Of a DNA stretch of 64,000 bases, positions 31,127 to 41,800 are shown in pieces; the stretch's first letter is position 1, and each line of letters opens with the position of its first letter. The notes below the pieces were generated by a model that ran no database searches, was not told where the DNA came from, and worked only from the letters and a program-made list of their open reading frames with translations. The stretch comes from Maribacter cobaltidurans (lineage in GTDB: Bacteria; Bacteroidota; Bacteroidia; Flavobacteriales; Flavobacteriaceae): the NCBI RefSeq assembly GCF_002269385.1, contig NZ_CP022957.1:4269001-4333000 (forward strand). The letters are read 5' to 3'. Both the position numbers and the translations under genes were made by a program.

Positions 31127-31216
31127 CAAAATAAAACCAATTCCTAAAATTTTATACGCTCTTTATGTGATTTTTTGGACACATTAGATACCTATAGAAA
31201 AAGAATACGAGCTTAC

Positions 31217-31705
31217 ATGAGTAAGGAAACGCATTTTGCGGATGTCATACGGGAACATCAAGGTCTATTGTATAAGGTGACCAGTATTTACACCAATAAT
31301 GAACAAGACCGGGAAGATCTTTTTCAGGAAGTGGTATATCAGCTTTGGAAGTATTTCGACACGTTTAGAAACGAATCTAAAATTAGTACATGGATGTACC
31401 GGGTGGCGATGAACACGGCGATTACCCAACTGAAAAAATACAAAAGAAGCCCCAATTCTGTTCCCATACCGGAGTATGTATTGAGGGTCTCCGAAACGAA
31501 AGATGAAGTTTATGAGGAGCGTTTAAAATTGCTATATCAACATGTAAAGCAACTAAATACGCTGGAAAGGGGTTTGATGCTCTTGTTGCTCGAAGGTAAA
31601 AGCTATAATGAAATAGCCAGCATTACGGGTTTAAATCCTTCTAATGTGGGAACAAGAATTTCCCGCATAAAACAAAAATTAAAACAAAACATGACCAAAT
31701 CTTAA
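31217..31705 (+). CDS. ECF-type RNA polymerase sigma factor
   Basis: 162 residues from ATG 31217; TTG 31175 would add 14 residues not typical of the family. Region 2 spans ~8-75 (YKVTSIYTNNEQDREDLFQEV, STWMYRVAMNTAI) and region 4 ~105-160 with a helix-turn-helix (LLEGKSYNEIASITGL, VGTRISRIKQKL). Four nucleotides after its stop begins a 200-residue membrane protein on the same strand, the usual place of an anti-sigma factor. Target promoters and signal are unknown. Confidence 0.92.
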   Translation: MSKETHFADVIREHQGLLYKVTSIYTNNEQDREDLFQEVVYQLWKYFDTFRNESKISTWMYRVAMNTAITQLKKYKRSPNSVPIPEYVLRVSETKDEVYEERLKLLYQHVKQLNTLERGLMLLLLEGKSYNEIASITGLNPSNVGTRISRIKQKLKQNMTKS

Positions 31706-31709
31706 TATC

Positions 31710-32312
31710 ATGGAATTAGAAGAACTACAAGCAACTTGGTCAAAAATGAGCCAGGAATTAGAAAAGCAAAAAAAATTAACGAACGAAATTATAATGAAAA
31801 TGACACAGGATAGATATCAAAAGAAATTTAGCAAGCTTAGGAATTTTGAAACGATTGGGGCGATTATTGGCTATTTTTTGGTAGGTCTTATTCTTTTTAA
31901 TTTCGGGAAATTGGACACATGGTATCTTCGCTTGAGCGGAGTTGTAACCATTGTTTTTTTTACACTGCTTCCCACCATTGTATTAAGGACTTTGGCAAGA
32001 ATTCAAAACCTGAGTTTAATAAAGGGAACATATCGGGACATTTTAGCAAAATATACTCGTGAAAAAAATCGATTATTACGGCTACAACAGGTAGGAATTG
32101 GGCTTAGCCTTATCTTAATGCCAATTATATTTCTAGGTACGGCAAAGATCATAGCAGGCAAGAATGTATTTTTGATTGAAATTGAAACCAAAGTATGGAT
32201 CGGCTTGTCCGTAGTAGCATTATTATCGATTCTTGTCTCCTTATGGGGCTATAGAAGCTATAAGCGAGTAACAAATTCGGCCGAATTACTATTAAAGGAT
32301 TTAGAAGATTGA
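31710..32312 (+). CDS. Four-helix membrane protein, possible anti-sigma partner
   Basis: 200 residues. A cytoplasmic helical head (1-45, MELEELQATWSKMSQELEKQ) precedes four membrane helices (~50-68, 77-95, 130-150, 160-182). No zinc-binding HxxxCxxC motif of typical anti-sigma factors is present. It starts 4 nt after the ECF sigma stop. In flavobacteria this kind of protein often follows ECF sigma genes, but I know of no demonstrated anti-sigma activity; that role is an inference from position. The stop is 1 nt from the convergent GntR gene. Confidence 0.7.
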   Translation: MELEELQATWSKMSQELEKQKKLTNEIIMKMTQDRYQKKFSKLRNFETIGAIIGYFLVGLILFNFGKLDTWYLRLSGVVTIVFFTLLPTIVLRTLARIQNLSLIKGTYRDILAKYTREKNRLLRLQQVGIGLSLILMPIIFLGTAKIIAGKNVFLIEIETKVWIGLSVVALLSILVSLWGYRSYKRVTNSAELLLKDLED

Positions 32313-33107: not shown

Positions 33108-33899
33108 ATGGAAATAGTTAGAAACACCTTGAAAAAAATGAGTCTATTGGCATCGGCACTGATCCTGGCCTATAGTTGTAGTGATGATGCCGAGACGGAC
33201 GACAACATAGTACTGTCCCAAGCGGACCTGAAAACCATTTTGGAAATCGACGATATAACTGGAGGTATAGATGTGGCTCTTTTTGAGCTTTACAATAATG
33301 GTAGCTCAACGGCCAAAACCCTTAGTAATGAATGCTATAGTGCCCAATATTCGGATACAGGATATATTGCAACGTTCAACAATTGTGTACTAAACGGAAC
33401 AGAAAATATTAATGGTGTCTTGACCGTAACGTACAATATGAATTCGGAACAAACTTCGTTTTCGGCTAGTTATGAGGATTTTTATGTCGGCGATATCAAA
33501 ATAAATGGAACAAGGTCTTACGTTCTAAATACCAATACGGATGCTAGTTCAGTTTCCTTTGAGGTTACCAGTGACCTAAGTGTGGAAATGGCGGATGGTT
33601 CAATTATTTCTGATGAGGGAAATAGATCTTTTACGCTCACTTTTGGTGATTCTGCCGAATCAACTACGTACAGTATAGCGGGTACCTGGACAGTAGTTTA
33701 TGAGGGTAACACTTATAATGTTACCGTGAATTCCCCATTGACCAGTAGTGTAACCTGTGGTTATATTGCAGATGGGGATATGACAGTTTCCAAAAATGGA
33801 CTTACCGTAAATGTGGATTTTGGTGATAGTACCTGCGATAATGTAGCGACCGTAACTTATCCTAACGGTATTGAAGAAGAAATTACCCTTAAGGATTAA
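33108..33899 (+). CDS. Hypothetical lipoprotein, beta-rich
   Basis: 263 residues with a lipoprotein signal (LLASALILAYSCSDD). The mature part is rich in Ser, Thr, Asn and Asp and predicted all-beta; paired Cys occur at ECYSAQY and NNCVLNG, and later at VTCGYIAD and DSTCDNV, suggesting periplasmic disulfides. The two Cys pairs and similar phrases (GTRSYVLN, GNRSFTLT) hint at an internal duplication. No catalytic motif. It ends at the shared terminator at 33929. Function unknown. Confidence 0.75.
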   Translation: MEIVRNTLKKMSLLASALILAYSCSDDAETDDNIVLSQADLKTILEIDDITGGIDVALFELYNNGSSTAKTLSNECYSAQYSDTGYIATFNNCVLNGTENINGVLTVTYNMNSEQTSFSASYEDFYVGDIKINGTRSYVLNTNTDASSVSFEVTSDLSVEMADGSIISDEGNRSFTLTFGDSAESTTYSIAGTWTVVYEGNTYNVTVNSPLTSSVTCGYIADGDMTVSKNGLTVNVDFGDSTCDNVATVTYPNGIEEEITLKD

Positions 33900-33928: not shown

Positions 33929-33963
33929 AAAAGGATAAGATTGATGAAGTCTTATCCTTTTTT
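33929..33963. terminator. Bidirectional terminator between lipoprotein and small-protein array
   Basis: AAAAGGATAAGA (33929-33940) pairs with TCTTATCCTTTT (33950-33961) across a 9-nt loop. T-rich downstream on both strands, so it ends the plus-strand lipoprotein transcript and the minus-strand array transcript. Confidence 0.85.
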
Positions 33964-33974
33964 ATTTCTTTTTC

Positions 33975-34094
33975 CTATACCAGAGAGATTTTCTCTTTGG
34001 CAGCTACCCAACGTACTTTCTGATTTACCGGTAAATCGGTAAAAAAAGCGAATTTTCTAGAAGTGGTTGGGGATAGTCTTCTGTAATGTTTCAT
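33975..34094 (-). CDS. Small basic protein array, member 4 (39 residues, divergent)
   Basis: ATG is the complement of 34092-34094 and TAG ends at 33975. The product opens MKHYRRLSPTTSRKF and is strongly basic. It aligns without gaps to members 1-3 and shares P9, T10, S12, R13, F17, F18, V27 and W29 in the same register although the DNA is largely different. Keeping these positions after so much divergence is strong evidence for protein-level selection. It is the last member before the terminator. A CCCGT/ACGGG hairpin lies 16 nt upstream of its start. Family not recognised. Confidence 0.72.
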   Translation of the reverse strand: MKHYRRLSPTTSRKFAFFTDLPVNQKVRWVAAKEKISLV

Positions 34095-34110
34095 AACCCC
34101 TGTATTTTGT

Positions 34111-34126
34111 CCCGTTGGTATACGGG
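34111..34126 (-). repeat. Hairpin upstream of array member 4
   Basis: CCCGT and ACGGG flank a 6-nt loop (16 nt in total), 16 nt before the start of member 4. It matches in position and flanking sequence (CGGGTGAT, then TTAAT) the longer palindrome before member 1, so it may be a leader structure or part of a duplicated unit. Confidence 0.5.
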
Positions 34127-34154
34127 TGATTAATATTGATTGATGTGTAATTAT

Positions 34155-34268
34155 TTAATGGGTAAAGTGTCTTGCTTCTGCCCATTGTACCCTTTTGCTA
34201 TTCCTAAAATTGCTGAAAAAAGAGTGTCTTCTTGATTCTGTTGGTGTTTGTTTAATGAAAGTTCTCAT
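34155..34268 (-). CDS. Small basic protein array, member 3 (37 residues)
   Basis: ATG is the complement of 34266-34268 and TAA ends at 34155. The product opens MRTFIKQT, contains PTESRRHSFF and KRVQWAE, and ends ARHFTH. Residues 9-31 are identical in members 1-3. Differences from member 2 in that core are synonymous (CAA/CAG Gln, GTA/GTG Val, AGA/AGG Arg, ACA/ACG Thr), which indicates translation and purifying selection. Eight Arg/Lys among 37 residues, two aromatic pairs, no signal peptide: a nucleic-acid-binding or ribosome-associated role is conceivable but unproven. Confidence 0.7.
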   Translation of the reverse strand: MRTFIKQTPTESRRHSFFSNFRNSKRVQWAEARHFTH

Positions 34269-34282
34269 GATGTTCGTTTTTT

Positions 34283-34324
34283 AATTGATGAATGATTGAT
34301 GAATAATTGATTGATGATTGATTT
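34283..34324. repeat. TGAT/GAAT-type simple repeat between array members 2 and 3
   Basis: Irregular repeats of TTGATGAATGA-type units fill the spacer upstream of member 3. Slippage or recombination over such units may change spacing or copy number of the array. Confidence 0.7.
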
Positions 34325-34331
34325 TAATTTT

Positions 34332-34445
34332 TTAGTGGGTATGATTTCTTACTTCTGCCCACTGCACCCTTTTGCTATTCCTAAAATTGCTGAAAAAAGA
34401 GTGTCTCCTTGATTCCGTTGGTGTTTGTTTAATGAAAGTTCTCAT
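34332..34445 (-). CDS. Small basic protein array, member 2 (37 residues)
   Basis: ATG is the complement of 34443-34445 and TAA ends at 34332. The product opens MRTFIKQT like member 3 and ends VRNHTH like member 1, so it is a mosaic of its neighbours or their intermediate. The core with PTESRRHSFF and KRVQWAE is unchanged. The 14 nt before the ATG (AAAAAACGAACATC) are identical upstream of member 3, which points to a duplicated unit that includes its translation signal. Confidence 0.7.
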   Translation of the reverse strand: MRTFIKQTPTESRRHSFFSNFRNSKRVQWAEVRNHTH

Positions 34446-34460
34446 GATGTTCGTTTTTTT

Positions 34461-34506
34461 AATTGATGATTGATGATTGATGATTGATGAATGATGAATG
34501 ATTTTA
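34461..34506. repeat. TGATTGA simple repeat between array members 1 and 2
   Basis: Four TGATTGA-type units followed by two TGAATGA-type units lie in the spacer upstream of member 2, equivalent to the repeat at 34283-34324. Confidence 0.7.
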
Positions 34507-34617
34507 ATGGGTATGATTTCTTACTTCTGCCCATTGTACCCTTTTGCTATTCCTAAAATTGCTAAAAAAAGAGTGTCTTCTTGATTCCGTTGGTGATTGA
34601 TTGATAAATCTTTTCAT
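34504..34617 (-). CDS. Small basic protein array, member 1 (37 residues)
   Basis: ATG is the complement of 34615-34617 and TAA ends at 34504. The product opens MKRFINQS, then has the invariant core with PTESRRHSFF and KRVQWAE and the ending VRNHTH. It is first in the direction of transcription. Its N-terminal eight residues differ from members 2 and 3 while the core is identical, so selection appears focused on residues 9-31. A perfect 16-nt palindrome lies 14 nt upstream of its ATG. No homologue recognised from memory. Confidence 0.72.
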   Translation of the reverse strand: MKRFINQSPTESRRHSFFSNFRNSKRVQWAEVRNHTH

Positions 34618-34647: not shown

Positions 34648-34705
34648 TGATGATTAATTGTTTTGTTTTTATATAAAGAAGACGAGGGATATATATTTTT
34701 GTTAC

Positions 34706-34773
34706 AGTACTATGTTATAAAAGGTACTATGTTTTTATTTTTAATGATATAAATATCAGATTATCAGTACTAT
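34706..34773. repeat. Three GTACTAT direct repeats in the array upstream region
   Basis: GTACTAT occurs at 34707, 34724 and 34767, each followed by T/A-rich sequence of similar kind (ATGTTATAA, ATGTTTTTA, ATATGATAA). They lie upstream of the array on one strand and of the cold-shock gene on the other. They could be binding sites for a shared regulator. The rest of 34648-34870 is AT-rich and shows no gene. Confidence 0.45.
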
Positions 34774-34872
34774 ATGATAAATGTTAAAAATTACTTAAAT
34801 ACATAATTGGGTATTTAATACCTGATTTCAAGACATTACCACATAACTACTTCATTATTACAAAACATACGC

Positions 34873-38808: not shown

Positions 38809-41800
38809 ATGAAATCCCTTTTTACCTTCTTGGCCTTGTTATGGCTTTCTATTACCTACTCACAAGATGCATTTATAACTACTTGGAAAACGGATAATCC
38901 CGGTGTTTCTGAGGACAATCAGATAACCATCCCTACGTTCCCTGGAGAAACCTATAATTATTCAGTCGATTGGGGAGATGGAACTACTGATACAAATATA
39001 ATTGGGAATATCACACATACTTATACAATTCCCGGGACTTTTCAAGTGGAAATTTCAGGAGTATTTCCTAGGGTTTATTTTCATAATGAAGGAGATAAAG
39101 AAAAAATATTGAGTGTTGATCAATGGGGTATTATCAATTGGTCATCTATGGAAAACGCCTTTTCAGGTTGTGCGAACCTAGATGTAAACACAATGGATAC
39201 GCCAATGTTGTCTAATGTCAGTGATATAAGGTATATGTTTTACGGATGCACTTCATTGGTCGGCACAAATTCTTTCAACAATTGGGATACTTCTAATGTA
39301 ACAAGAATGGATAGCCTATTCGCAGCATGTTCGCTTTTTAATCAACCCATTGGAAATTGGAACTTGGAAAACGTAACAACAATTGCTGGATTGTTTAATG
39401 GTGCTACTTCTTTCAATCAAGATATTGGAAATTGGAACGTTAGCAATGTTGAAGATATGACATTTACGTTTGCCCAAGCATCATCCTTTGACCAGTATAT
39501 AGGTGATTGGGATGTGTCAAAAGTATTTGCTATGGGTTTTATGTTTAACGGCGCTAGTGCATTTAATCAAAACATTGGTAATTGGAACGTCGGCAATGTA
39601 GTACATATGTATAGTATGTTTAGTGGCGCAACACTTTTCAATCAACCAATTGGCAATTGGGACACATCCAACGTTACAAGTACTTCAGGAATGTTTGGTG
39701 CAGCTCAGGCATTTAATCAACCAATAGGTAATTGGAATATGTTTAATGTAACCAATATGTCCAGTATGTTTAGTGGAGCAACTAATTTCAATCAAGACAT
39801 TTCTAATTGGGATGTAAGCTCGGTTACAAAAATGCCTGGGATGTTTAGATATGCTCAAGTGTTTAATCAACCAATCGGAAATTGGAATATATCTAGTATT
39901 ACTGATATGTCAAGAATGTTTGAAGGGGCCCTAAATTTTAATCAAAATTTAGGGCTTTGGAACATAACCAGTGTAGGGACCATGGAAGACATGTTTCTAT
40001 TTGCGGGCATTTCACAATCAAATTATGATTCCACTCTGACCGGATGGAGTTCAAAATCCTCATTACAAAACAATATAAAATTCAATGGTGGTAGTAGTAC
40101 TTTCTGCGCTGGAGAGGGTGCTAGATTAAAACTGATTAATCAATATGGTTGGGAAATTATAGATGGCGGCAAAGCCAATTGCCCCTTTATTACCACTTGG
40201 AAAACGGACAATCCTGGTTTATCTGATGATAACCAAATAACTATCCCTACATTTCCGGGGGAGACTTATAATTATTATGTGGATTGGGGGGATGGAACTT
40301 CAGATACCAATATAAATGGGGATATTACACATACTTACGAAGTTCCGGGAACCTACCAGGTTTCCATAGACGGAACTTTTCCTAGAATTTACTTTTATGG
40401 GAATCATAATCCTGGTTCAAATGATGTTTTGAAAATTCTTTCTGTTAATCAATGGGGGACAATTACTTGGACATCTTTTGAAAGTGCTTTTGAAGGTTGT
40501 TCGAATTTGGATGTATTGGCACAAGATATTCCTAATCTATCATTAGTTTCAAGTCTTAAATTGATGTTTGACAGTTGTGCGAATTTAGTTGGAAATTCAT
40601 CTATCAATAATTGGGATGTATCCAATGTGAGCAATATGCATGGTGTATTTGCAAATGCTTTAATTTTTAATCAAAGTATCAATGGATGGGATACATCTAG
40701 CGTCACTACAACCTCAGGAATGTTTTTTAAGGCTCGTTCTTTTAATCAACCATTGAATTCTTGGGATGTATCTAATGTCGAAGATATGTCAGTTATGTAT
40801 GGTAGTGCAGATAAGTTCAATCAACCTTTAGTCTTATGGAATACCACCAGTACTAAGAATATGAATGGCATGTTCGAATATGCAATAGAATTCAACCAAC
40901 CTTTGGATTCTTGGAATGTATCAAATGTGGAAAATATGCAGTCTATGTTCTTGGGCGCCCGCAGTTTTAATCAACCCTTGAATTCCTGGAATGTTTCAAA
41001 AGTATCCAACATGTACGGTATGTTTCAAGAAGCCGATAAGTTTAATCAACCACTTAATTCTTGGAATGTTTCAAATGTAGAGAATATGTCAAGTATGTTT
41101 TGGAATGCAACATCCTTTAATCAGAACATTACTGATTGGAATGTTTCAAATGTAACATCCATGAATAGTACGTTTAAAAATGCGATTTCGTTTAATCAAG
41201 ATTTGAGTAATTGGAATATTGTAAATGTCAGTAGCATGTATGAAATGTTTTCCGCGACTAGTGTTACCACAGAAATTTATGACAAAACCCTCATTGGTTG
41301 GTCCAATCTATCTACATTAAAAAATAATGTACTTTTTGATGGAGGGAATAGCCAATATTGCGAATCTGAAGAGGCCCGACAATATCTTATAGATACATAT
41401 GGCTGGACTATTACCGATGGGGGTAAAAGCCTTTTATGCAATGAAGACAATGATTTCGATGGTGTCTTGGACCACAAAGATAATTGCTTAAACACAGTTC
41501 CAAATGCTACGGTAGACGAAACCGGCTGTGAAATTATTCCTGGAAATGCCATTTTGGTATATGGTTTAACGCCAACCTGTCCTGGAACAACGAATGGAAG
41601 CATTCAGGTATCAAGTTCTTTGACGGACCCCTCCTATAACATCAGCTTAGATGGTCCAACGACGATTACCGAAAATAACGTTTCTCTCAACCAGCCTTAT
41701 ATAATAAATAATTTATCTACCGGCCTATATACGGTTGAAATTTCTATTCCTGAGGCATCTTATACCCAATCTTTTGGAATTCAAATTAACGAAGTAGGTA

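Follow-up and report, generated by a model that had tools for sequence, protein, structure and literature searches.

Amongst described systems, the closest to the array of tiny proteins analysed here are the DUF1127 proteins, comprising the A. tumefaciens SDPs, R. sphaeroides CcaF1 and E. coli YjiS, which are likewise tiny. DUF1127 proteins are Arg-rich, a feature that the array proteins share with their 37 aa and an R/K ratio of 1.7; several are found per genome, and ccaF1 is RpoH-driven. With respect to function, several small DUF1127 proteins were reported to have phenotypes on loss (PMC12501420; PMC10253847), and those of A. tumefaciens to bind PhoR directly (PMC12501420). In contrast to these proteins, the Maribacter array members have no match to the DUF1127 profile, which is absent from the Pfam matches of the four array proteins and of 97 family members, and the ORF itself is the repeated unit; in addition, the array family was found only in Flavobacteriaceae among the samples searched and has an ECF-type promoter. 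Judged by its sequence, the array protein is therefore not a DUF1127 protein.

A second point of comparison is the GFO_1088/PG0214 family of ECF sigma factors. In P. gingivalis the operon has the order PG_0214 (sigma), PG_0215 and PG_0216 (DUF4252), and the levels of PG_0214-0216 in a PG_0686 mutant were reported to exceed those of the wild type 8-11-fold under H2O2 and 2.4-3.0-fold without H2O2 (PMC10101095). As far as the accessible part of that report goes, these figures reveal a regulated operon and not which stress induces it, and because they compare mutant with wild type, oxidative stress has been left out of the explanation proposed below. The Maribacter genome has the same gene order of ECF gene, anti-sigma position and DUF4252 gene; however, the known entry is a sigma factor, and tiny-protein arrays as its targets are not mentioned in the accessible part of the source (PMC10101095). 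Also comparable, by description, to the array promoter is SM6 of F. psychrophilum, a class of ECF-type promoters characterised by CGT as the -10 box and by low-nutrient induction, for which the part of the source at hand mentions no tandem small proteins (PMC9723704). A description of the arrays or of their motif was not found in the literature, as far as open-licence PMC papers are concerned.

Layout, coding capacity and distribution of the array

The array resides in a window of 64 kb, by which the whole stretch of DNA analysed is meant, and which stems from a single 4.64-Mb contig. The ORF scan agrees with the coordinates of the four minus-strand frames of 37, 37, 37 and 39 residues listed in the original prediction, and these are real: member 1 (34504-34617), the first in the transcript, member 2 (34332-34445), which served as query for the family searches and the structure model, member 3 (34155-34268) and the 39-residue member 4 (33975-34094). 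Members 1 and 3 came up as family matches in the own genome, and the identity of members 1-3 over residues 9-31 was seen again in the translated ORFs. The minus-strand spacers between members 1 and 2 (34446-34503, G-poor and with an A-rich start context at its end), 2 and 3 (34269-34331), and 3 and 4 (34095-34154) measure 58-63 nt; the resulting tandem repeats of 172-177 nt from start to start, together with the multi-copy loci in relatives, bear out the proposed expansion by duplication.

Two of the earlier statements hold in part. Member 4 does keep P9, T10, S12, R13, F17, F18, V27 and W29 in register as had been described, but it is more than a decayed copy: a divergent last-position type like it is also present in the relatives L005, L006 and L010, and its E-value is 0.18 with a single-sequence search and 9e-15 with the family profile. 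Likewise, the hairpin with a T run at which the array was said to end is present at 33929-33961 (14 pairs), between the array and a convergent plus-strand gene (33108-33899, 263 aa), but the terminator scan calls it for the plus strand only; with its T-rich minus-strand tail, as seen by eye, it is presumed to terminate the array as well and to be a two-way terminator. On the other side, a divergent gene, which from its sequence we take to be cold-shock-domain-like, lies 412 nt upstream of the array.

The claim that selection acts on the protein is confirmed by substitution patterns. Pairwise pN/pS values amongst members 1-3 are 0.13, 0.35 and 0.15; for distinct copies, with pairs limited to a pS of 0.05-0.55, the value in the true frame is 0.26 in 79 same-locus pairs and 0.50 in 2,343 cross-locus pairs, as compared with 1.25 and 0.91 in the two shifted frames (all 2,422 pairs), so that pN/pS is well below 1 in the coding frame alone and the excess of synonymous changes extends to the relatives. 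At the start sites of 247 distinct copies, the region from -13 to -11 is A-rich, with A at -12 and -13 in 94% and 89%, respectively, A at -6 in 66%, and A or G at -3 in 98% (A in 77%). In F. johnsoniae, adenines at -3, -6, -12 and -13 were described as favouring translation (PMC6847099), and because they are A-rich at -12/-13, -6 and -3, the start sites of the arrays fit this pattern. By these sequence comparisons the tiny ORFs form a conserved family with marks of translation, and a chance origin of the four ORFs is excluded.

The 37-residue protein can be found in 35 of 36 genus genomes (E <= 1), the weakest best match having an E-value of 3.4e-5, and of 397 Flavobacteriaceae genomes 104 match the window protein at E <= 0.5, including 50 at E <= 1e-4, in line with the expected conservation outside the strain. 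A profile search of a 296-genome sample of the phylum, with the best 25 candidates per genome scored, gave three convincing genomes, all of them Flavobacteriaceae, whereas three partial matches in other families (E 0.005-0.01) were weak and judged to be due to chance. Named carriers include Maribacter, Eudoraea, Robiginitalea, Muriicola, Saonia, Pricia, Kriegella, Croceitalea, Poritiphilus and a Lutibacter MAG. Altogether there are 279 copies at 110 loci, a set that includes some loci reached by two routes, for which reason distinct counts are used elsewhere. Arrays contain one to five copies, and 78 of the 102 distinct loci are tandem arrays while 24 are single copies. Contig breaks or N runs lie inside the arrays of L022, L033, L028, L029 and L031, and since assemblies are interrupted in this way, the copy numbers from draft genomes are lower bounds.

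That the family was an unrecognised one is borne out by the libraries: neither Pfam (four window proteins and 97 members) nor the PDB yielded a credible match, NCBIfam and PHROGs gave none above cut-off for the four proteins, and the 106 clusters retrieved by protein search contain no Pfam domain, their named members being hypothetical, uncharacterized or unnamed. Matches judged to be due to chance were those to the GM-CSF receptor alpha in the PDB (E 0.004 and 0.005), to Soc in the Pfam scan of the four window proteins, and the weak Pfam matches of single members (three to Rabaptin and one each to DUF755, Haemocyan_bet_s and DUF6847).

There is no fixed partner gene beside the 102 distinct arrays. 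Three genes recur most often next to the arrays, namely one of 264 aa (28 occurrences, almost always convergent on the downstream side), one of 701 aa (22, always on the opposite strand) and one of 152 aa (20, upstream and divergent), presumably coding for lipoprotein-like, EF-G-like and cold-shock-like proteins, respectively; they point to a common map position and not to an operon. No copy turned up in collections of phages, plasmids and viral contigs when these were searched with one 37-aa query at E <= 1, and none of 74 matches from a pattern search of these collections was confirmed, so that an origin from phages or plasmids was ruled out.

The array promoter and a candidate sigma factor

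The window array is preceded on the minus strand by a promoter block (34680-34728) that consists of AGTACC-N11-AGTACTGTAAC at 34701-34728, containing a -35-like TGTAAC (34701-34706), and a -10-like CGTCT at 34680-34684; its general form is AGTACY-N11-AGTACTGTAACAAA-N13-CGTCTA. In the 36 genus genomes, AGTACY-N8..14-AGTACTGTAAC occurs at 34 sites in 32 genomes, all of them just 5' of arrays as matched by eye, while the reversed pattern used as control does not occur. Amongst the loci examined there are 131 distinct sites of this form, with the consensus TTAAA.ATT...TAAAATAGTAC(C/T)TTTTTATACATAGTACTGTAACAAA-N13-CGTCTATTA. Although the bases of the pattern are conserved by construction in this set, CGTC lies outside the searched pattern, and in 123 of the 131 sites its distance downstream of GTAAC is nevertheless precisely 16 nt. 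A regular expression taking the first CGT[CT] gave a spacing of 16 at 105 sites, 13 at 20, 17 at two and none at four, but as the count at the fixed position puts CGTC at 16 in 123 sites, most cases with a spacing of 13 are due to TCGTCGTC.

An independent test is provided by the 102 arrays that were found by their proteins. Here, the AGTAC promoter is located within 500 nt of 70 arrays, namely 66 of the 78 multi-copy but four of the 24 single-copy loci; a further ten have the sigma part alone (TGTAAC-N15..17-CGTC or a close form), and 22 belong to neither class. Allowing one mismatch adds five arrays (L094, L095, L131, L151 and L185; 75 in total, reversed control zero), and because the AGTAC form is absent from 27 arrays even then, ECF control of the arrays is not universal. 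In the order sample, the array promoter was found in two of 296 genomes, both of them members of the family. Of the loci without the ECF promoter, L080, L115 and L162 (TATES-GQYF type) have, by eye, a TTTGTA element resembling the housekeeping -7 box, and L115 and L162 adjoin a gene that from its sequence we take to be class III cyclase-like. A TTCGGTA motif was seen by eye at L170, L178, L179, L180, L182 and L186, which are without the AGTAC promoter; L170, L178 and L186 are single copies lacking the ECF promoter and adjoin a presumably DUF4386-like gene.

Upstream of this block, an additional AGTACT element next to TACTGATAATCTGAT (34765-34786, minus strand), which came up as a repeat, could, albeit weakly, be taken for an activator site. 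Several loci have a palindrome resembling TACTGATTATCAGTA, whose distance from the AGTAC block (about -42, -53, -64 or -75) varies in steps of one helix turn, and with up to three mismatches it is found at 11 of 131 sites as opposed to about one in shuffles; it might represent the site of an activator upstream of the arrays. As for the two AGTAC boxes attached to the array promoter, they are probably recognised by a further factor.

With respect to the sigma part, a candidate gene of the GFO_1088/PG0214 family is located in the own genome at C1:3971673-3972182. Its product matches NCBIfam NF058625 with 246 bits (cut-off 130) and contains sigma regions 2 and 4, and the gene is followed by genes for a 144-aa protein without a Pfam match, in the position of an anti-sigma factor, and for a DUF4252 protein (Pfam). 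Of 29 genus loci (30 loci were taken from 35 matches and one was not parsed), 27 have the motif GTAAC-N16-CGTC 5' of the ECF gene, as compared to seven of 2,811 random windows; the two exceptions are L290, where a contig end interrupts the locus, and L288, which is without the motif. In other Flavobacteriaceae genomes it precedes the ECF gene at 26 of 27 loci. The -35 and -10 elements of the ECF gene's own promoter and their spacing thus equal those at 123 of 131 array-type sites. We infer from these matching elements that the NF058625 sigma factor may drive the array, but other ECF factors may read the same promoter sequence.

The sites of TGTAACAAA-N13-CGTC in the 36 genus genomes, 113 in number against seven in the reversed control, are divided between ECF genes (32), arrays (33) and other places (48). 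Thirty such loci, about one per genome, comprise nine ABC ATPase genes, eleven arrays (two of them assigned by position because of contig ends or gaps) and six ECF genes, the remainder coding for a DUF4870-like, a CAAX-protease-like, a DUF456 and one further protein. In the own genome, GTAACA-N15-CGTC shows a slight excess (seven sites versus three in the control), and six of the seven sites precede gene starts, namely those of the array, the ECF sigma gene, and genes for a DUF4870 protein, an ABC ATPase, a 111-aa exported-type and a 211-aa membrane-type protein; the subfamily that the ABC ATPase resembles most is that of lantibiotic protection, although its score stays below the cut-off (232 versus 310 bits). 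The form TGTAAC-N13..19-CGTCT is not enriched in the own genome (five sites versus ten in the reversed control). From these other genes with the sigma-type promoter, envelope-type stress might be guessed to be the signal.

Co-occurrence of the ECF gene with the promoter was also considered as proof of the link, but it was too weak. The ECF gene is present in 69 of 71 promoter-positive genomes (Fisher p 0.002, with genome size as a confounder), but since it is found in at least 343 of 397 family genomes, with the best nine candidates per genome scored, this comparison discriminates weakly. A different ECF sigma gene and its 200-aa partner are located in the window itself at 31175-32312, with 1.7 kb between the end of the pair and the array; this ECF gene is not among the TGTAAC-N-CGTC sites of the own genome. 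Elsewhere in the window, at 39605-39795, there is a coding-type repeat of 75 nt (MSSMFSGATHFNQPIGNWNTSNVT type), presumably of the kind present in BspA-like surface proteins.

Other tiny proteins behind the same promoter

In family genomes without a convincing match to the 37-residue protein, the same promoter stands before different tiny proteins, likewise in tandem and 23-44 residues long. These comprise a 28-residue type (MRTLNSNNLTESPRNSKSFNWNSKRRFR), a repeated 24-residue type (MRTTIFNNSKRVRWSAHRNYAIKS), types of 23, 31 and about 44 residues, and a GFGW type of 39. Common to the tiny proteins is the C-terminal core [ST]KRxxWxxxRx[YF]. ORFs with W-x3-[RK]-x-[YFH], between one and five in number, lie behind 121 of 125 promoter sites, these being the distinct sites out of 131 with at least 700 nt of downstream sequence, whereas no such ORF was found on the upstream divergent strand (0 of 131) or behind sites with other spacing (0 of 5). 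At L246, which has a site of the exact form, the place of the tiny ORF is taken by a gene for a 141-aa exported-type protein. Amongst 271 distinct proteins, which were selected by W at 0 and by the residues at +4 (R in 99%) and +6 (Y, F or H), the positions that played no part in the selection have S or T at -5 in 94%, K at -4 in 85% and R at -3 in 80%.

A MGFGW/GFGWNTDRLY protein of about 36-43 aa occurs in the operon near 21 of 125 promoter sites, usually between the promoter and the first copy (L085, L097, L098, L107, L145, L152, L157, L159, L167-L169 and L228). In other loci, an ORF of 43-45 aa often comes after one to three 28-aa copies, some of these ORFs ending in WNGVKRYAH-like cores and others being without W (L217, L219, L231, L239, L240, L253-L256, L260-L262, L264, L265 and L269). 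Neighbouring 24- or 28-aa copies are identical in protein in L253-L256, L258 and L259 (in the latter the first two of three), which suggests, at the level of the sequences compared, recent duplication or gene conversion.

Protein features and possible functions

Seven residues, T10, F18, S19, K25, R26, W29 and R33, are nearly fixed (94-97%) in 172 distinct 37-residue proteins. The highly basic nature noted for the four window proteins is a property of the family, with a mean net charge of +6.1 and the above R/K ratio in 247 copies; mean hydrophobicity is negative and a hydrophobic segment is missing. An AlphaFold2 model based on 97 sequences predicts, at medium confidence (mean pLDDT 72.5, pTM 0.39), helices at residues 11-14, 16-21 and 25-33. 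T10 and S24 sit directly before helices, probably as N-caps, and K25, W29 and R33 follow one another at intervals of four residues (i, i+4, i+8). Foldseek found no fold match to this model in the PDB. The most constant part of the protein is the last helix with the core [ST]KRxxWxxxRx[YF], and the shortest relatives keep only the part forming this helix.

Taken as a whole, we give about an even chance to the explanation that the array belongs to an ECF sigma regulon of the envelope-stress type, as a multicopy operon that makes cytoplasmic cationic mini-helices in high dose. The NF058625 sigma factor would recognise TGTAACAAA-N13-CGTC both at its own gene and at the array, with the AGTAC boxes adding a second input through the further factor; on induction, one mRNA would give rise to several copies of the tiny cationic protein, the array copy number setting the dose. 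The protein would then act in the cytoplasm as a small basic modulator, and by analogy with DUF1127 proteins its likeliest target would be RNA/RNP or a protein partner.

Sigma-E-type responses have an RNA-based repressive arm. As a bolder and rather speculative extension, the operons might constitute an undescribed class of stress effectors of the Flavobacteriaceae, in which one hyper-conserved promoter is combined with interchangeable, fast-changing microproteins of 23-44 residues that have the 12-residue helix as their sole constant and copy number as their dose, and which could be the protein counterpart of that arm, acting on mRNA or ribosomes. Such tiny proteins are easily missed by annotation, the family being nameless in the libraries searched and yet present in almost the entire genus, while the 27-base promoter pattern allows the operons to be located even when their proteins are no longer recognisable. 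The promoter therefore offers a probe, with a candidate sigma factor, for a putative stress response across a major marine family, and the 12-residue core a handle for a direct target search. This suggests that a minimal protein, present in many copies, serves these marine bacteria in a stress response for which no description was found.

Alternatively, the proteins might be regulators of one protein partner, such as RNA polymerase or sigma, an anti-sigma factor, a sensor kinase or a protease, onto which the W-R-Y helix docks while the copies set the titre. We regard this as a tentative possibility: the near fixation of F18, K25, R26, W29 and R33 amid variable surroundings has the look of a docking motif, the DUF1127 proteins that bind PhoR provide a precedent (PMC12501420, as far as accessible), and the link between ECF gene and array would permit feedback, but the absence of a fixed neighbour at the 102 arrays speaks against it, and a net charge of about +6 would suit polyanions as well.

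It is unlikely that the proteins are cationic Trp helices which bind the inner membrane leaflet and alter its charge or permeability in envelope stress. While the sigma-type promoter is also present at genes for membrane proteins and for the ABC ATPase resembling lantibiotic-protection proteins, the hydrophobic moments of the helices in the 172 proteins lie below those of shuffled sequences (0.35 versus 0.39 for helix 2 and 0.25 versus 0.32 for helix 1), for which reason an amphipathic membrane helix was rejected, and the negative mean hydrophobicity points in the same direction.

Quite improbable is an array of regulatory RNAs, i.e. processed sRNA repeats in which the ORFs are secondary. The tandem units and G-poor spacers (8.9% G in 140 spacers) would suit it, the RNA of the window array is more strongly folded than any of its 20 shuffles (z -2.76), and strong stop-codon hairpins are found in some short-type copies (56 copies, mean z -0.76). 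However, a pN/pS well below 1 in the coding frame alone and the fixed length (214 of 279 copies have exactly 37 aa) argue for the protein, and stop hairpins are not general (mean z -0.32 in 247 copies), so that a hairpin at each stop was rejected; a known RNA family was rejected as well, Rfam giving no match in the window at gathering scores. Since the RNA of the window array is somewhat more folded than shuffles, an added RNA role besides the protein may exist. Released antimicrobials (leaderless bacteriocins) or type I toxins, to which the cationic Trp/Arg-rich sequence and the multicopy genes would be suited, can hardly be reconciled with a hydrophilic protein that has no hydrophobic segment, that has no constant neighbour and no export or immunity gene at a constant place in 102 arrays, and for which the searches of phage, plasmid and viral collections gave no match.

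At the loci L217, L219 and L225, strong, attenuator-like hairpins of 10-12 pairs extend across the stop of some of the 28-aa copies.
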